Source: Guyparkeria halophila
Lineage (GTDB): Bacteria > Pseudomonadota > Gammaproteobacteria > Halothiobacillales > Halothiobacillaceae
DNA length: 64,000 nucleotides
Direction: 5' to 3'
NCBI RefSeq assembly: GCF_034479635.1
Contig: NZ_CP140153.1
Span: forward strand, 1,929,501 to 1,993,500
The notes under the pieces are model-generated. The model did not search any database. It was not told the origin of the DNA and worked only from the letters and a program-made list of their open reading frames with translations. Within the stretch, counting starts at the first letter, position 1. Each line of letters begins with the position of its first letter. Shown here one piece after another: positions 14,336 through 30,370 of this stretch. The translations under genes and the position numbers were made by a program.

Positions 14336-15259
14336 TTACTGCCAACCGATGAACGCGGTAGCGGCATCGGCCGCGTCGTAGAGGAACAGGTCGCGGAACA
14401 TGTGGTCCGCGCCGGAGACGGTGGTCATCTCGACGTGATCGTCCTCGACCCGCTCGGCCATCTTCTCCTCGAGATCGGTGACCGTGTCATCGGCACCGGC
14501 GACCACGACCAGGGTCTCGATCGAGGTCTCACCCAGCACGGTGGGCGTGTCCATGCGCGGGTCCTCGCGGTAGTAGCTGACCACGCTCGAGGCGGCAGCA
14601 CGGGTATCCGGGCAGTAGATGAAGTCCATCTCCATCAGCGCGTCGCCCTTGCCCTCGGCGACCAGTGCCTCGGCCTTGTCCAGCAACGGGGCGAGCGCGG
14701 TGTCGTAGTTCGCCTGATAGTCCTTGGCCTCGTAGCCCTCGGACCAGGTCTGCGGCGCCAGCAGGACCGCCTTTTCGACCATCGGATCGGCCTGGTCGGC
14801 GAGATAACGGGCCACCTGGTTACCACCGCGCGAATGCCCCAGCACGGCGAGCCGCTCGGCCCCCTCGCCCTTGAGCCATTCGGCCCAGGCAGCGATCTCG
14901 TCGACCGCATCCTCGTGCTTGTGACGATGGGTGGAATCGCAGTCGTACATGCCTTCGCGGGCATCCTGGCCGAGACTCAGGTTGATGGCCAGCGAGTTGT
15001 AGCCGGCATCACGCAGCAGTTCCTGCATGCTGCTCATGATCTCCATCTGCCCGTGGGCGAGCGTGCCGTGGACCATCAGCACTACGCCGTCCTCGACCGA
15101 ACTACCGGGCGCCATCTCCATGTACCCGACCAGGGTCATGTCGTCGTGCTCCAGTTCGACCCGGTCGGCGGCCTGCGCAACCGACTGGACCAGGCCGATC
15201 CCACCGATCAGCGGCAGACAGAGGGCCGCCATGGCAAGTCGTTTCAACGTGTTTTTCAT
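14336..15259 (-). CDS. Exported alpha/beta hydrolase
   Basis: 307 residues with a signal peptide (cleavage after AQA, about residue 30). Alpha/beta hydrolase features are HGTLAHGQ (oxyanion region), the nucleophile elbow GHSRGG (Ser143), VVAGADDTV (acid) and SGADHMF (base His). Cysteines at YDCDST and IYCPDT could form a disulfide in the periplasm. The substrate is unknown. AAGGGGAG precedes the ATG. A strong hairpin-T-tract lies 180 bp upstream on the same strand, so the gene needs its own promoter or is controlled by read-through. Confidence 0.82.
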   Translation of the reverse strand: MKNTLKRLAMAALCLPLIGGIGLVQSVAQAADRVELEHDDMTLVGYMEMAPGSSVEDGVVLMVHGTLAHGQMEIMSSMQELLRDAGYNSLAINLSLGQDAREGMYDCDSTHRHKHEDAVDEIAAWAEWLKGEGAERLAVLGHSRGGNQVARYLADQADPMVEKAVLLAPQTWSEGYEAKDYQANYDTALAPLLDKAEALVAEGKGDALMEMDFIYCPDTRAAASSVVSYYREDPRMDTPTVLGETSIETLVVVAGADDTVTDLEEKMAERVEDDHVEMTTVSGADHMFRDLFLYDAADAATAFIGWQ

Positions 15260-15442
15260 TGTTATCTCCCCTTGGTGGACGAGTCATTAGACGTCGATGT
15301 GGGAGTGTAGCCCGCGCCGATCGGTCATGCCCATCCGTATATGCCGCCAAACGATTTTCTGGTCGCCAGCGCTTCCACTAACGCAAACCATCTCGGCAAA
15401 ACCGGCCGAGGGGACGGGACGGCCATGCCTCTTTCGGACAGG
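15260..15442. other. Leader/promoter region of the hydrolase gene
   Basis: No gene is supported here. A possible -10 (TACACT on the minus strand near 15305) lies close to the hydrolase ribosome site, without a clear -35. Confidence 0.4.
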
Positions 15443-15485
15443 CAAAAAAATGGGCAGGTCGCTCCCCGAGGGAACAGACCTGCCC
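15443..15485 (-). terminator. Strong intrinsic terminator
   Basis: A perfect 9-bp stem, GGGCAGGTC (15452-15460) with GACCTGCCC (15477-15485), followed on the minus strand by A and seven T. It is 279 bp past the end of dnaE2 and ahead of the hydrolase gene. Confidence 0.85.
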
Positions 15486-15653
15486 GCAAACTCACCGCAG
15501 GAGGAGTCGATGAAAACGAAGAGGCATCTCAACGCGACTCACCGGCTATGACCGGAACGAGATTCAGGAGTTCCCCGAACGGGTGAATCGCGCCAATGCG
15601 CCGAGTGGAGTGGGATCTGGCTGACTCGATTGCCCCTTCGCCTTCGATTGACG
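15443..15653 (-). ncRNA. Candidate ~210-nt small RNA with an anti-Shine-Dalgarno loop
   Basis: A minus-strand transcription unit is bounded by a promoter (-10 TATACT at 15660-15665) and a strong intrinsic terminator (15443-15485), with no credible open reading frame inside. Just before the terminator, UCAUCG (15508-15513) can pair with CGGUGA (15492-15497), which exposes the ten-base loop ACUCCUCCUG (15498-15507). This loop is complementary to Shine-Dalgarno sequences. The layout (C-rich anti-SD loop, then terminator with U run) is typical of trans-acting bacterial sRNAs. An alternative is a leader/attenuator for the downstream hydrolase gene. Confidence 0.45.
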
Positions 15654-15659
15654 CGGGCC

Positions 15660-15688
15660 AGTATAGCGGCCATTCATGCAAATGCAAA
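15660..15688 (-). promoter_or_regulatory. Minus-strand promoter of the small-RNA candidate
   Basis: TATACT (15660-15665) is spaced 17 bp from TTTGCA (15683-15688). The -10 matches five of six positions and the -35 is weak, suggesting need for or control by a protein bound at the overlapping dyad. Confidence 0.5.
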
Positions 15689-15710
15689 CCCTTCGCATTG
15701 CCGTTTGCAT
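15682..15710. promoter_or_regulatory. Inverted repeat, likely operator
   Basis: ATGCAAAC (15682-15689) and GTTTGCAT (15703-15710) form a perfect 8-bp dyad with a 13-bp spacer. An extra half copy, ATGCAA, is at 15676-15681. One arm contains the -35 of the minus-strand promoter. Confidence 0.5.
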
Positions 15711-15763
15711 GATGTGCCGGTGGCGGGCTAACTGCCCCGTCGTGGACGGCCCGCATCGGTATC

Positions 15764-18700
15764 TCAGTGGAAATCGCGCGAGCGCGTGGGCAACTCGCCC
15801 AACCAGTGGCTGTGATCGACCAGCATGCGCGCGACCAGGTGCGCGACGCCGTCACGGTGCTGCCACTGGCCGCGCACCTCCAGCAGACGCGCATTGACCA
15901 CCACCTGCCGATATTCGGCGACGCGATCCGGCCAGACGATCACGTTGACCGTGCCGACCTCGTCTTCGAGCGTCAGGAACACCGTGCCCTTGGCCGTGCC
16001 GGGGCGCTGGCGCATGGTCACCAGGCCGCAGTAGCGCGTGTGTGCGCCGTCGTGGCGGGTGGCCAGTTCGTCGCTGCGCCGCAGCCGCAATCGTCGTAAT
16101 CGGTCGCGCAGCAGGCCCAGCGGGTGGCCATTCAACGACAGCCCCAGCCGCTGGTAGTCGGCGACGATGGTCTCGGCCTGGTTCGGCACGGGCAGGTCGA
16201 CGGCCGGTTCGGCCACCTTTCGATCGGCCGGCAAGCCGGCCTCGAGTGCCATGTCCGCGGGGATACCGCTCGCCGACCAGTGCGCCGCGTAGCGATTGCC
16301 CTCCAGCGCGGCGAAGGCCCCGGCATGGGCCAGCGCGCGGCGGTCACGGGCATCCAGGCGGGCCCGGCGCACGCAATCGGCCACGTCGCGAAAGGCCATC
16401 TCGTCGCGGGCGCTCAGTAGCCGGTCGATCCCGGCCGCGGACAACCCGTGGATGCGCCCCAGCCCCAGGCGCAGGGCATGGGTCTGGATGGCATCTCCCC
16501 TCCCATTGAGCGACTCGAGCGTGCTCTCGCCGTCACTGGCCAGCACGCAGGGCGGGCGCACCACCACGCCGTGACGGCGGGCGTCCTGCACCAGTTGCGA
16601 CGGGCCGTAGAAACCCATGGGCTGGCTGTTGAGCAAGGCACAGTAGAAGGCGACCGGCTCGTGGCACTTGAGCCAGGCCGAGGCGTAGGCGATCACCGCG
16701 AAGCTGGCCGAGTGCGACTCGGGAAAACCGTACTCGCCGAAACCGAGGATCTGCCGGTAGACCCGGTCGGCGAATTCGGCGGCAAAGCCACGTGCGGTCA
16801 TGCCGTCGTAAAGTTTCTTGCGAAAGTCCTCGAGCGTGCCGCGCTTGCGCCAGGCGCCCAAGGCACGCCGGAGCTGGTCGGCCTCGCCGGCGGTAAAGCC
16901 GGCCGCCACCATCGCCAGCTCGATCACCTGTTCCTGGAAGATGGGCACGCCCAGGGTGCGGCCCAGCACCCGCCGGATCTCCTCGTTGGGGTACTCCTCG
17001 GGCTCGAGTCCCTGGCGGCGCTTGAGGTAGGGGTGGACCATCTCGCCCTGGATCGGACCGGGGCGGACGATGGCGATCTCGATCACGAGATCGTAGAAGC
17101 AGCGGGGCCGAAGACGCGGCAGCATGCTCATCTGCGCCCGCGACTCGATCTGGAACACGCCGACAGTGTCCGCCCGACTGATCATCTCGAAGGTGGCCGC
17201 ATCCTCGCGCGGGATCGACCACAGCGCCAGCTCGCGCTCACGCGGGCGGTGGTGATTGACCAGCTCGAAGGCGCGGCGCACCGCCGAGAGCATACCCAGG
17301 GCCAGCACGTCGATCTTCATCAAGCCCACGGCATCCAGATCGTCCTTGTCCCACTGGATGACCGTGCGGTCGGCCATCGAGGCATTCTCCACCGGCACCA
17401 GATCAGCCAGCTGGCCGCGCGCGATAACGAACCCGCCCACGTGCTGGGAGAGATGCCGCGGCATGCCGGTCAGTTGTCGGGCGATCGCCAGCCACCAGCG
17501 GATCTGGCGCAGGTTGCCGTCGATGCCGGCGGCCGCCAGCTTCTCCTCGCTGACCTCCTTGTCCCACCAGGCCAGTTGCTCGTTGACGCGCTCGGTCACG
17601 TCCTCGCCCACGCCCAGCGCCCGGGCGGCATCGCGCAGCGCGGACTTGCGCCGGTAGCGGATCACCGTCGCCGCCAACGCCGCCCGGTCGCGGCCGTAGC
17701 GGTGGTAAATGTACTGCATCACCTCCTCGCGGCGGTGATGCTCGAAATCGACGTCGATATCCGGCGGCTCGGCCCGTTCCTTGGAGATGAAGCGCTCGAA
17801 CAGCATCGAGGATTCCGCCGGATTGACCGCGGTGATCCCGAGCGCGAAGCACACCGCCGAGTTGGCCGCCGAACCGCGACCCTGGCAGAGGATCCCGCGC
17901 GAGCGGGCAAAGCGCACGATGTCGTGCACGGTGAGAAAGTACGGCTCGAAGGCCATCTCCTGGATGATGCCGAGCTCGCGATCGATCTGGGCGGCCACGC
18001 GGTCGGGAATGCCATCGGGCCAGCGTGTTGCCGCCCCCTCGAAGGTCAGGCGACGCAGCTGCTCGCCCCCGGTCACCCCCGGCGGGATATCGTCGAGCGG
18101 GTACTCGTAGGAGAGCTCGTCCAGGGAGAACCGACACTGGGCGGCCAGGGCCACGGCCTCGGCCCGCCACTCGGTCGGAAACCGCTCGGCGAGCACCTCG
18201 ATCGGGCGCAGGTGGCGCTCGGCATTGGACGGCAGGCGATCGGCCGCCTCCATCACGCTCATCCGATGTCGCAGGGCCGTGACCACGTCCAGTAGCGGCT
18301 TTTCTTGCCGATCGGCCATCAACGTGTCACCCAGGGCGGTAACAGGCAGACCATGGGCCGCCGCCAGCGCCCGGGCATGGGCCGCTCGGCGCCCGTCCAG
18401 CCCGTCGAGCCACGCCACCACGCCCAGCCAGGGGCGGATACCGCCGGCGAGCAGCCAGTCCGGCGAGGGCATGTCACGGGGCGGCACCTGCCAGATCACC
18501 CGCACCCCGGCATTCAGCCCAGCAAGCACGTCCGCCCGGCCAAGCCGGTACTCGCCCTTGACCGCCGCCCGACGCCCGCGGGTAACGAGCTGGCTGATCG
18601 CGGCATAACCGGCCCGGGTCGCCGCCAGCAACACCAGCTCGTCGCCCGCCTCGAGCACCAGCCGCGTACCGATGATCAGCTGCGGACGCCCGCCCTCCGG

Positions 18701-18874
18701 TAGCGCCCGCCAGCCTTGCTGGGCACGCACCACTCCGGCCAGCGAGCACTCGTCGCAGATGGCAATGGCGGCGTAACCGCGCGCAGCGGCCGTCTCCACC
18801 AATCGCTCCGGGCTGGGCGTGGCAGTCAGAAAGCTGAAATTGGAACGGGCGGACAGCTCGGCATGGGGGCTCAT
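15764..18874 (-). CDS. dnaE2: Error-prone DNA polymerase DnaE2 (ImuC)
   Basis: 1036 residues, normal for DnaE2. An N-terminal PHP domain (AELSARSNFSFL) is followed by the polymerase palm with PDIDVDF (Asp372, 374, 376) and FQGRGSAANS-type glycine-rich sequence, fingers with FPESHSASFA, helix-hairpin-helix, and a C-terminal OB fold (CGLVTMRQRPGTAKG). The extreme C-terminal clamp-binding tail of DnaE1 is absent, as expected. DnaE2 performs damage-induced translesion synthesis with ImuA/ImuB, which are not in this window. A LexA-type box lies eight bases before the ATG, so SOS control is likely. No Shine-Dalgarno is visible, so the message may be leaderless. Confidence 0.93.
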   Translation of the reverse strand: MSPHAELSARSNFSFLTATPSPERLVETAAARGYAAIAICDECSLAGVVRAQQGWRALPEGGRPQLIIGTRLVLEAGDELVLLAATRAGYAAISQLVTRGRRAAVKGEYRLGRADVLAGLNAGVRVIWQVPPRDMPSPDWLLAGGIRPWLGVVAWLDGLDGRRAAHARALAAAHGLPVTALGDTLMADRQEKPLLDVVTALRHRMSVMEAADRLPSNAERHLRPIEVLAERFPTEWRAEAVALAAQCRFSLDELSYEYPLDDIPPGVTGGEQLRRLTFEGAATRWPDGIPDRVAAQIDRELGIIQEMAFEPYFLTVHDIVRFARSRGILCQGRGSAANSAVCFALGITAVNPAESSMLFERFISKERAEPPDIDVDFEHHRREEVMQYIYHRYGRDRAALAATVIRYRRKSALRDAARALGVGEDVTERVNEQLAWWDKEVSEEKLAAAGIDGNLRQIRWWLAIARQLTGMPRHLSQHVGGFVIARGQLADLVPVENASMADRTVIQWDKDDLDAVGLMKIDVLALGMLSAVRRAFELVNHHRPRERELALWSIPREDAATFEMISRADTVGVFQIESRAQMSMLPRLRPRCFYDLVIEIAIVRPGPIQGEMVHPYLKRRQGLEPEEYPNEEIRRVLGRTLGVPIFQEQVIELAMVAAGFTAGEADQLRRALGAWRKRGTLEDFRKKLYDGMTARGFAAEFADRVYRQILGFGEYGFPESHSASFAVIAYASAWLKCHEPVAFYCALLNSQPMGFYGPSQLVQDARRHGVVVRPPCVLASDGESTLESLNGRGDAIQTHALRLGLGRIHGLSAAGIDRLLSARDEMAFRDVADCVRRARLDARDRRALAHAGAFAALEGNRYAAHWSASGIPADMALEAGLPADRKVAEPAVDLPVPNQAETIVADYQRLGLSLNGHPLGLLRDRLRRLRLRRSDELATRHDGAHTRYCGLVTMRQRPGTAKGTVFLTLEDEVGTVNVIVWPDRVAEYRQVVVNARLLEVRGQWQHRDGVAHLVARMLVDHSHWLGELPTRSRDFH

Positions 18875-29017: not shown

Positions 29018-29677
29018 TCAGGCCAACAGCACCGCGATGATGCCGGTGATGAAGATGCCGTCGAAGGTGCCCGCCCCGCCGATGGAGGCCACCGGCGAGC
29101 CCATCTTGCGGATGTCCTTCAGACGCAGCAGATCGGCCCCGATCAGTACGCCGAGCGTGCCGCCCACGTAGGCCAGGGCGGGACTGTGTGCCGGGTCGAT
29201 CAGGATCCCGGCCATGGCGGCCGCCAGCGGCGCGATGATGATCGGCATGCCGATCCCGATCCCCGGCACGGGACGGCTGGCGTAGTACGACACCGCGGAG
29301 ACCGTGATCACGGCCAGCAGGTAGTCGAACACGGCCGCCCCGGCATGAAGCATCAAGTAGGCGGAGAATGTCAGCGGCAGCAGGCAGCCACCCAGATTAA
29401 CGGCCACCGTCGTGACGCCCTCGAAGGGGACCTGCCTGTGCTTGAGCAGGCTGCGAAACGGTTCGGGGGGCGGTTCGTCGGGCGCCTGGGCCTGCATGCG
29501 AAACAACGGCACATTGACGAGGCTGCCCATTAACGAAACGAACAGGAGCGTCATGCCCGCCTCCGGATCGAGCCCCAGCTTGTCGAAGGCGAGCTGCAAC
29601 GCCCCGACCTGAACCAGGACGAAGAGCAGGAAGAGCCCGAACAGGGCGAACAGGAACGGACCGCCCGGCATCGGCAT
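29018..29677 (-). CDS. DUF1614 membrane protein
   Basis: 219 residues from the ATG at 29677, which shares one base with the stop of the methyltransferase gene (TGATG). It has six or so membrane helices with family motifs FVSLMGSLVNVPLF, VNLGGCLLPL, YYASRPVPGIGIGMP, GGTLGVLIGADLL and a conserved C-terminal SIGGAGTFDGIF. DUF1614 proteins have no proven function. The coupling to a methyltransferase is the only context clue. Confidence 0.85.
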   Translation of the reverse strand: MPMPGGPFLFALFGLFLLFVLVQVGALQLAFDKLGLDPEAGMTLLFVSLMGSLVNVPLFRMQAQAPDEPPPEPFRSLLKHRQVPFEGVTTVAVNLGGCLLPLTFSAYLMLHAGAAVFDYLLAVITVSAVSYYASRPVPGIGIGMPIIIAPLAAAMAGILIDPAHSPALAYVGGTLGVLIGADLLRLKDIRKMGSPVASIGGAGTFDGIFITGIIAVLLA

Positions 29678-30324
29678 CACCCCTCGTTGATGGCCGAGAC
29701 GACCACGAAGGCACATTGGCCGCACCCGGACCGCAGGGGCTCGATTTCCCGCATTCGCTCGGGTGAGTGGGACAGGGTCTGGCCCCAGGCATCCACGCGA
29801 AAGCCGCCGTCATCGAGCATCGCCGCCACCTCCTCGGCCGAGTGGAAGCTCGCCTCAAGGTAGAACACACTCTCGTGGCGGTGTGTGGCGTAGACCTGGC
29901 CAAGCGGGCTGTCGCGGTCGATGAAGCCGATTACCAGCCGCCCACCCGGCCTGAGCACGCGGCGGGCCTCGGCGACCATCGTCGCGGGCGAATCCAGGAA
30001 GCAGATCGTGGTGACCAGCAAGACGTGATCGAAACGGTCGGCCGCAAACGGGAGTGCCTCGCCAACGCCTTCGACCACCTCGATACCGCGCTTGGCCGCG
30101 TAGTGCAGCATGGCCGGTGACGGGTCGACGCCCACCTGCACGCCCAACGGCCCGGCAAAACGACCGCTGCCCACCCCGATCTCCAATCCGTCGCCCTCCC
30201 GGGGCACGAACGCCCGCAGGGCGAGCAGTTCGGAGACGTAGGCGGCCTCATGGCGCTCGAACCAGTCTTCATAGCGCCGATGATGGGCCTCGAAGGCGGC
30301 GTCTCTAGCCATGCCGATGGCCAT
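29677..30324 (-). CDS. Class I SAM-dependent methyltransferase
   Basis: 215 residues. It has a Rossmann methyltransferase fold with motif I LEIGVGSGRFAGPLG, the acidic end of strand 2 (VGVDPSPAML), motif IV FDHVLLVTTICFL, and motif V VLRPGGRLVIGFID. It resembles UbiE/Bioc-like small-molecule methyltransferases, but the acceptor is unknown. AGGAGG lies upstream of the ATG at slightly long spacing. It is co-translated with the DUF1614 gene. Confidence 0.85.
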   Translation of the reverse strand: MAIGMARDAAFEAHHRRYEDWFERHEAAYVSELLALRAFVPREGDGLEIGVGSGRFAGPLGVQVGVDPSPAMLHYAAKRGIEVVEGVGEALPFAADRFDHVLLVTTICFLDSPATMVAEARRVLRPGGRLVIGFIDRDSPLGQVYATHRHESVFYLEASFHSAEEVAAMLDDGGFRVDAWGQTLSHSPERMREIEPLRSGCGQCAFVVVSAINEG

Positions 30325-30370
30325 GCAGTTGGGCCCCCCTCCTGCGGTGACAAATGCGTTTGCGAGCCAT

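Follow-up and report, generated by a model that had tools for sequence, protein, structure and literature searches.

A predicted Fur-controlled small RNA with a near-invariant anti-Shine-Dalgarno segment in the genus Guyparkeria

Introduction

The systems closest to the element described here are small RNAs (sRNAs) linked to iron. NrrF of Neisseria is described as a Fur-controlled sRNA that represses sdhCDAB and petABC (PMC5586341), and HrrF of the Pasteurellaceae has an active form of about 97 nt and Fur boxes that seem to overlap its promoter (PMC4144887). FsrA of Bacillus is Fur-repressed, acts with FbpABC and carries a C-rich motif said to bind Shine-Dalgarno (SD) sequences, while IsrR of Staphylococcus is Fur-repressed, with three C-rich, single-stranded regions and conservation through one genus; a chaperone dependency is not among the traits that it has in common with RyhB/PrrF (PMC9410917). 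BrrF of Burkholderia is a low-iron sRNA that is unlike the known Fur sRNAs and present in related genera (PMC7377471), and RusT of Caulobacter is an iron-starvation-induced, Hfq-dependent sRNA (PMC11005374). Here we describe a transcription unit on the minus strand of a 64,000-nt stretch of Guyparkeria halophila (contig NZ_CP140153.1, positions 1,929,501 to 1,993,500; hereafter the window), which we read, with a probability of roughly 0.7, as a free-standing, Fur-repressed, trans-acting sRNA of iron starvation.

The best reading of this RNA is that it is analogous to RyhB, PrrF and NrrF, with no detectable homology to Rfam families. It is like NrrF in its predicted Fur control, and petA is the best a-priori candidate target here; it differs in that Rfam gives no match up to an E value of 10 and that no pairing with the start of sdhC is predicted. 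At about 210 nt, it is longer than RyhB of the enterobacteria, PrrF of Pseudomonas and HrrF, it again matches none of them in Rfam, and sodB is not predicted as a target. Its C-rich contact resembles those described for IsrR and FsrA, the sequences having been compared only through Rfam; both of those sRNAs are from Gram-positive bacteria, whereas Guyparkeria is Gram-negative and has Hfq. The Guyparkeria RNA has a predicted Fur box in its promoter, whereas BrrF, which is probably co-expressed with hemP, lacks one directly upstream (PMC7377471), and no Fur site was recognised for the RusT promoter (PMC11005374). Iron sRNAs that are unrelated to one another and restricted to a lineage are not unusual, as HrrF and BrrF show (PMC4144887, PMC7377471).

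If our reading is correct, the unit represents another independent origin of a Fur-governed iron sRNA, with a C-rich anti-SD segment in a Gram-negative bacterium that has Hfq, and offers a small, tractable system in which to study how unrelated sRNAs are repeatedly drawn into Fur regulons. Members of Guyparkeria are chemolithotrophic sulfur oxidisers that rely on cytochromes and iron-sulfur proteins for their energy metabolism, and the RNA would serve them in iron sparing. No paper on Guyparkeria and small RNAs was found in the literature searched, none of the matches listed for Halothiobacillus with sRNAs or Fur boxes mentioned Halothiobacillus, and no title among the matches listed by related searches concerned Guyparkeria.

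Results and Discussion

All positions are window coordinates, and minus-strand features, to which the unit belongs, run toward lower coordinates. A promoter scan of 1.6 kb returned a single match (0.4 ± 0.6 expected), the sigma-70-like TTTGCA-17-TATACT on the minus strand, which bears out the promoter proposed by an earlier, sequence-only reading of this DNA on account of its -10 TATACT. The -35 hexamer TTTGCA (15683 to 15688) is found in nine of ten genomes (TTTGTA in the tenth) and the -10 hexamer TATACT (15660 to 15665) in eight (TATAAT in two). The same reading had noted an overlapping dyad operator and left its regulator unnamed. The dyad, ATGCAAA...TTTGCAT, is indeed present at 15676 to 15710, as part of an extended minus-strand operator made of an array of TGCRAA/TTYGCA-like half-sites that is conserved in the ten oriented promoter sequences, and it encloses a 19-bp palindrome, AATGCAAACCCTTCGCATT, at 15681 to 15699 (strand-less) over the -35. 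We are nearly certain that this operator represents a Fur box; the palindrome is, we presume, close to the textbook form. Its spacing to the -10 is 15 bp, with overlap of the -35, in all ten genomes.

Evidence for Fur comes from the other sites of the palindrome. With up to two mismatches, the pattern AATGCRAANNNTTYGCATT occurs three times in the genome of origin (reversed-pattern control, 0): at the RNA promoter, before fhuF and before exbB-exbD adjoining tonB. Across 11 genomes of the genus there are 29 palindrome sites against 2 for the reversed control, comprising 10 at the RNA, 6 at exbB, 3 at fhuF, 3 at a gene for an LbtU-type siderophore porin, 5 at a cupredoxin gene and 2 others, namely one at an HDOD gene and one unassigned in a poor genome (G004). 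Of the 19 sites away from the RNA, 17 thus lie ahead of a gene for ExbB, FhuF, the siderophore porin or the cupredoxin. The exbB assignments were made by Pfam in five cases and by start sequence in one, and those of fhuF by Pfam in all three; the porin was assigned once by NCBIfam (282.9 bits), once by a weak Porin_O_P match and once by start sequence, and the cupredoxin once by Pfam and otherwise by start sequence, the frame in L248 shifting after the first codons. The FhuF siderophore-iron reductase of the genome of origin scores 109.5 bits with TIGR03951 (cut-off, 63.85). Because the neighbours of these other sites form an iron-uptake regulon, we infer that the palindrome binds Fur. One clear Fur is encoded in this genome (175.9 bits against a cut-off of 146), and a Zur-like relative, with 149.7 bits, falls below its cut-off of 167. 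The RNA is thus very probably Fur-controlled, judging from its promoter, and the predicted Fur box in turn suggests what the RNA does.

Several observations concern the members of this putative regulon. In L239, L241 and L245 (G006, G005 and G010), a Fur-box-like palindrome precedes the LbtU-type siderophore porin gene about 18 to 20 kb from the RNA gene, a place that matches none of the three palindrome sites (up to two mismatches) of the genome of origin. In L240, L243, L244, L246 and L248, from five genomes, a gene for a periplasmic cupredoxin has at its start the palindrome AATGCGAAC[C/T]GTTCTCGTT, on one strand or the other; this gene is likely, from sequence, to be a further Fur target. 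The FhuF-like protein of the genome of origin (L012:1600-2394; genome positions 1070500-1071294) probably starts 26 codons after the start of the longest open reading frame (ORF), at AGGAGGAGCTGATG; the SD at AGGAGGAGCTGATG is a full complement of CUCCUCCU of the RNA.

The RNA is predicted to be about 210 nt long (15444 to 15653, minus strand), with its start placed by promoter spacing and an invariant CGUCA. Its predicted fold is more stable than those of 200 out of 200 dinucleotide shuffles, with z = -3.71 when 211 nt are folded and z = -4.15 when only the 121 nt at the 3' end are. In the consensus structure of ten sequences, 96.2% of pair cells are paired, compared with 94.4 ± 0.4% after shuffling and at most 54.1% in a slid-partner control, and the covariation score of 0.187 (0.153 ± 0.008 shuffled) was reached by none of 500 shuffles. 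At the 3' end, a terminator hairpin at 15452 to 15485, with 13 consensus pairs that are 98.5% paired across the ten genomes, is followed by seven T (15444 to 15450; minus strand), giving a U7 tail that is invariant in all ten; a strong terminator of this form had been claimed before. A simple terminator scan listed no terminator (0, with 0.9 ± 1.0 expected). In G009 (L007), the 3' arm of the terminator carries a 14-bp tandem duplication (GGAGCGACCTGCCC twice) ahead of a T run that still counts seven T. From these features, the predicted transcript stands alone, with an intrinsic terminator and a U tail, and an hfq gene in the genome of origin (101 bits; cut-off, 27) together with the U-rich 3' end is what would be expected of an Hfq-dependent sRNA.

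In a long-range stem, P1, the 5' end of the RNA (15637 to 15652) pairs with UCUUCGUUUUCAUCGAC (15506 to 15522; both minus strand), and every one of the ten genomes keeps either 12 or all 13 of the 13 pairs. Its 3' arm is more conserved than its 5' arm (89.3% against 76.8%), as if it served a second duty. Just outside P1 and ahead of the terminator lies an anti-SD segment, ACUCCUCCUGCGGUGAG (15491 to 15507, minus strand), in which 14 of 16 columns (alignment 180-195) are invariant; the seed segment is 96.4% identical among genomes, whereas the middle of the RNA reaches 48.9%. Within it, CUCCUCCUG has a mean unpaired probability of 0.42 to 0.79 in the ten genomes, against 0.32 to 0.40 for the whole RNA. 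Two further minus-strand blocks are conserved: GGGGAACUCCUGAAU (15562 to 15576), which holds a second CUCCU element and has 96.0% pairwise identity with 12 of 15 columns invariant, and the fairly conserved GAGUCAGCCA (15618 to 15627), which could form 10 bp with the start region of petA, a pairing that is suggestive only.

The sequence-only reading had placed an exposed CUCCUCC in the loop of a hairpin beside the terminator. A near-invariant segment does stand there, and, as far as predictions from sequence go, the wider proposal holds of a minus-strand RNA that is structured, conserved and closed by a terminator; what fails is the manner of presentation, as the segment appears to be presented mainly by the long-range stem. 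The hairpin at 15492 to 15513 can form six pairs in nine of ten sequences, is weak and competes with P1. The covariance check suggested for it showed one-sided changes only, with the stem broken in G010, whereas the terminator stem at 15452 to 15485 is among the helices that hold the few two-sided changes. Local folds of the hairpin range from -2.2 to -5.8 kcal/mol and are locally suboptimal in G006 and G010, while the isolated P1 duplex gives -13.6 to -20.5 kcal/mol, a comparison that is not strict; P1 is predicted to win.

Two small ORFs offer other explanations of the same bases. On the plus strand, a 13-codon leader peptide following AGGAGGAG had been named as the main rival; the apparent minus-strand features would then be its shadow. 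In its favour, AGGAGGAGTCGATG with MKTK[R/K]H[L/R]N[A/V]T[H/R]xL is present in five of ten genomes. The ORF has 13 codons in only those five, however; it lacks a start codon in G006 and G010 and runs to 14, 25 and >35 codons in G005, G009 and G008, respectively. The only promoter-like site of the region faces the opposite way and the T run is on the minus strand only; we regard this explanation as very improbable. It is also conceivable that the RNA is bifunctional and encodes a small minus-strand protein, MPLRFHRLLLR, from an ATG before the 3' arm of P1. This 11-codon ORF is open in G000, G001, G007, G002 and G003, five of the ten genomes, but it is cut short at 6 codons in both G008 and G009, gives way to another 7-codon frame in G010 and has no ATG in G005 and G006, so that we give a dual function hardly any weight.

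The Fur-repressed sRNA that we favour would work as follows, with Fur binding, transcription, Hfq binding and the silencing of iron-protein mRNAs inferred from what the sequence displays, namely the promoter, operator, terminator, conservation, predicted structure and the fur and hfq genes. When iron is plentiful, Fe-Fur on the palindrome at 15681 to 15699 would block the -35; when iron is scarce, an RNA of about 210 nt would be made toward lower coordinates and end at its own terminator. P1 would close most of this RNA and leave CUCCUCCUG largely single-stranded ahead of the terminator, and the U7 tail would suit Hfq. CUCCUCCUG would then pair with the SD and start regions of mRNAs and block their translation, perhaps assisted by the second CUCCU element and the GAGUCAGCCA block. 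By analogy with the known Fur sRNAs, the likeliest targets would be mRNAs for iron-rich proteins, resulting in iron sparing. The RNA probably acts in trans; that it silences mRNAs in the service of iron sparing is a view toward which we lean only slightly.

Seven genes were tried as targets: sodB, sdhC, petA, petB, nif3, fhuF and a dihaem cytochrome c. Energies were ranked against 370 ORF starts from 464 kb, a background produced by a crude ORF caller in which some 'genes' are probably shadow frames; the stacking table behind the sodB/sdhC, petA and bare-helix energies was entered by hand. The Pfam model UCR_Fe-S_N identifies the petA product as the Rieske subunit of cytochrome bc1, and the start region of the gene has a 10-bp match to the GAGUCAGCCA block, plus CAGGAGU opposite ACUCCUG. 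With accessibility included, petA ranked at 1.4% of the background in G000, 8.1% in G001, 9.2% in G006 and, through another site, 32.7% in G010. A two-site score, devised after the match was noticed, placed it at 0.27 to 0.54% in three genomes and at 13.5% in the fourth. These predictions are suggestive and make petA a lead, no more. Immediately upstream of petA and petB, a NIF3-like gene has retained the SD ACAGGAGGAGC in G000, G001, G006 and G010 (L251, L252, L253 and L205); this SD holds a 9-nt complement to CUCCUCCUG and ranks at 2.7 to 7.3% of the background.

The arrangement AGGAGGAG-N3-9-ATG occurs at 11 places in the genome of origin (control, 0), which include fhuF, two genes named by reading, one for a cytochrome b and one for a dihaem cytochrome c, and the plus strand of the RNA gene itself. 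In G001, G003, G006 and G010 there are 38 such places, at 30 of which the loci were read. Common to the two sets are NIF3-like, UspA-like, chemoreceptor and methionine-rich proteins; among iron-linked proteins, a hemerythrin-like protein (G001) and a haem-A-synthase-like protein (G010), both named by reading, appear once each.

A number of results weigh against an iron-sparing, mRNA-silencing sRNA. Two classical targets, sodB and sdhC, are not predicted here and fall at percentiles 43 to 99 of the background. Of 11 genomes, 7 yielded sodB, and the 6 of these that carry the RNA as well were used for its test; sdhC was located in 5 of the 11 and tested in 5. ORFs with iron motifs pair no better than others (8/370; P = 0.66), and no recurring iron enzyme emerges among the genes with AGGAGGAG before ATG at the loci read in G001, G003, G006 and G010. 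The 12-nt seed complement CGCAGGAGGAGT is found, with up to one mismatch, at 14 places in the genome of origin against 12 for the reversed control; one place is the RNA gene itself, and the other 13 gave no convincing translation start. The bare helix energy of petA is matched by 48 of the 370 starts and reached by 14 of 500 shuffled RNAs. The longest SD match belongs to a methyltransferase gene (29677 to 30324, minus strand), whose ribosome-binding site GTCACCGCAGGAGG (30338 to 30351, minus strand) is complementary to the seed region at 13 of 14 bases; the window holds three seed-complement matches within two mismatches (1.25 expected). An orthologue is present in three of eight stretches and the match is lost in G001, G002 and G008; hence it is probably due to chance or strain-specific. 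On the structural side, just 4 of 47 pairs (7 cells) show two-sided changes, a number of pairs that 52 of 500 shuffles also attain; the changes fall in P1, in the helix next to it and in the terminator. Also, the GGUGAG part of the segment is less free, with unpaired probabilities from 0.01 in G000 and G003, where it is almost wholly paired, to 0.61 in G005.

As specific mRNA targets could not be shown, one has to consider that the RNA, though Fur-controlled, pairs with no particular mRNAs and works instead through a protein or the ribosome; CUCCUCCU also resembles the anti-SD sequence of 16S rRNA. A near-invariant and largely single-stranded segment, a U7 tail and a genomic Hfq nevertheless fit ordinary base-pairing sRNAs, and we regard such action as unlikely. 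More doubtful still is a reading in which the near-invariant CUCCUCCU would mimic this anti-SD sequence and serve as a global low-iron translation brake on strong-SD mRNAs as a class and not on a few iron-enzyme mRNAs.

The base-pairing sRNA that we prefer appears to be confined to one genus. A DNA search of 57 genomes, including that of origin, found the unit in 10, all Guyparkeria, and a covariance model built from the ten sequences placed the RNA at the same position in 10 of 11 Guyparkeria genomes; the eleventh, G004, is 64% complete. None of 16 other genomes of the order had a match above noise, two weak matches in genomes of the family having E values of 0.16 and 0.5. Among 369 genomes of the class, seven matched at an E value of 0.01 or lower, three of them from the genus; the other four (1.5e-4 to 0.0066) look chance-like by eye, and the matches outside the genus, four in the class and two in the family, fall by eye on tRNA, terminator and coding sequence. 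Extra model matches in the genome of origin had E values of 0.017 and 0.019, besides an opposite-strand match over the terminator. Rfam, in a copy that presumably includes RyhB, PrrF, NrrF and other named families, gave no match at the gathering score across the window and none up to an E value of 10 for the 271-bp unit.

The unit lies in a gene-free gap of 504 bp (15260 to 15763), as had been reported, and was called an orphan; it is one in the sense that it contains no ORF, but the next gene downstream shares its strand. That gene encodes an alpha/beta-hydrolase (14336 to 15259, minus strand) and follows the T run by 112 to 225 nt in all nine genomes in which both flanks are visible. A promoter, a structured RNA, a terminator and a gene in this order would also be the layout of an attenuated leader, and a short CCUGC/GCAGG pairing of the seed with the 5' arm of the terminator, read from the sequence, is possible. 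On this alternative, Fur would control the hydrolase gene, and the RNA would be its 5' leader, ending at a premature terminator in the manner of an attenuator or riboswitch. However, this gene has a -10-like box of its own, G[G/A]CTA[C/G/A]ACT, 39 to 51 nt before the ATG in all nine genomes (TACACT at 15304 to 15309, minus strand, in the window), with a -35-like TGGGCA or TAGGCA in six of the nine. From the T run onward, conservation is low except close to the gene, no strong antiterminator was seen in the predicted folds, judged by eye without a systematic search, and Rfam yielded no match. With what appears to be a separate promoter for the hydrolase gene, the RNA looks complete in itself, and a leader is unlikely.

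On the other side of the free-standing sRNA lies a gene of the DNA polymerase III alpha family (15764 to 18874, minus strand), which we read as dnaE2. The order dnaE2, RNA, hydrolase is kept in nine of nine genomes with both flanks visible; in the tenth, the contig stops after the RNA and the hydrolase flank is out of view. The product of the hydrolase gene, which is separate from the RNA, is probably exported.
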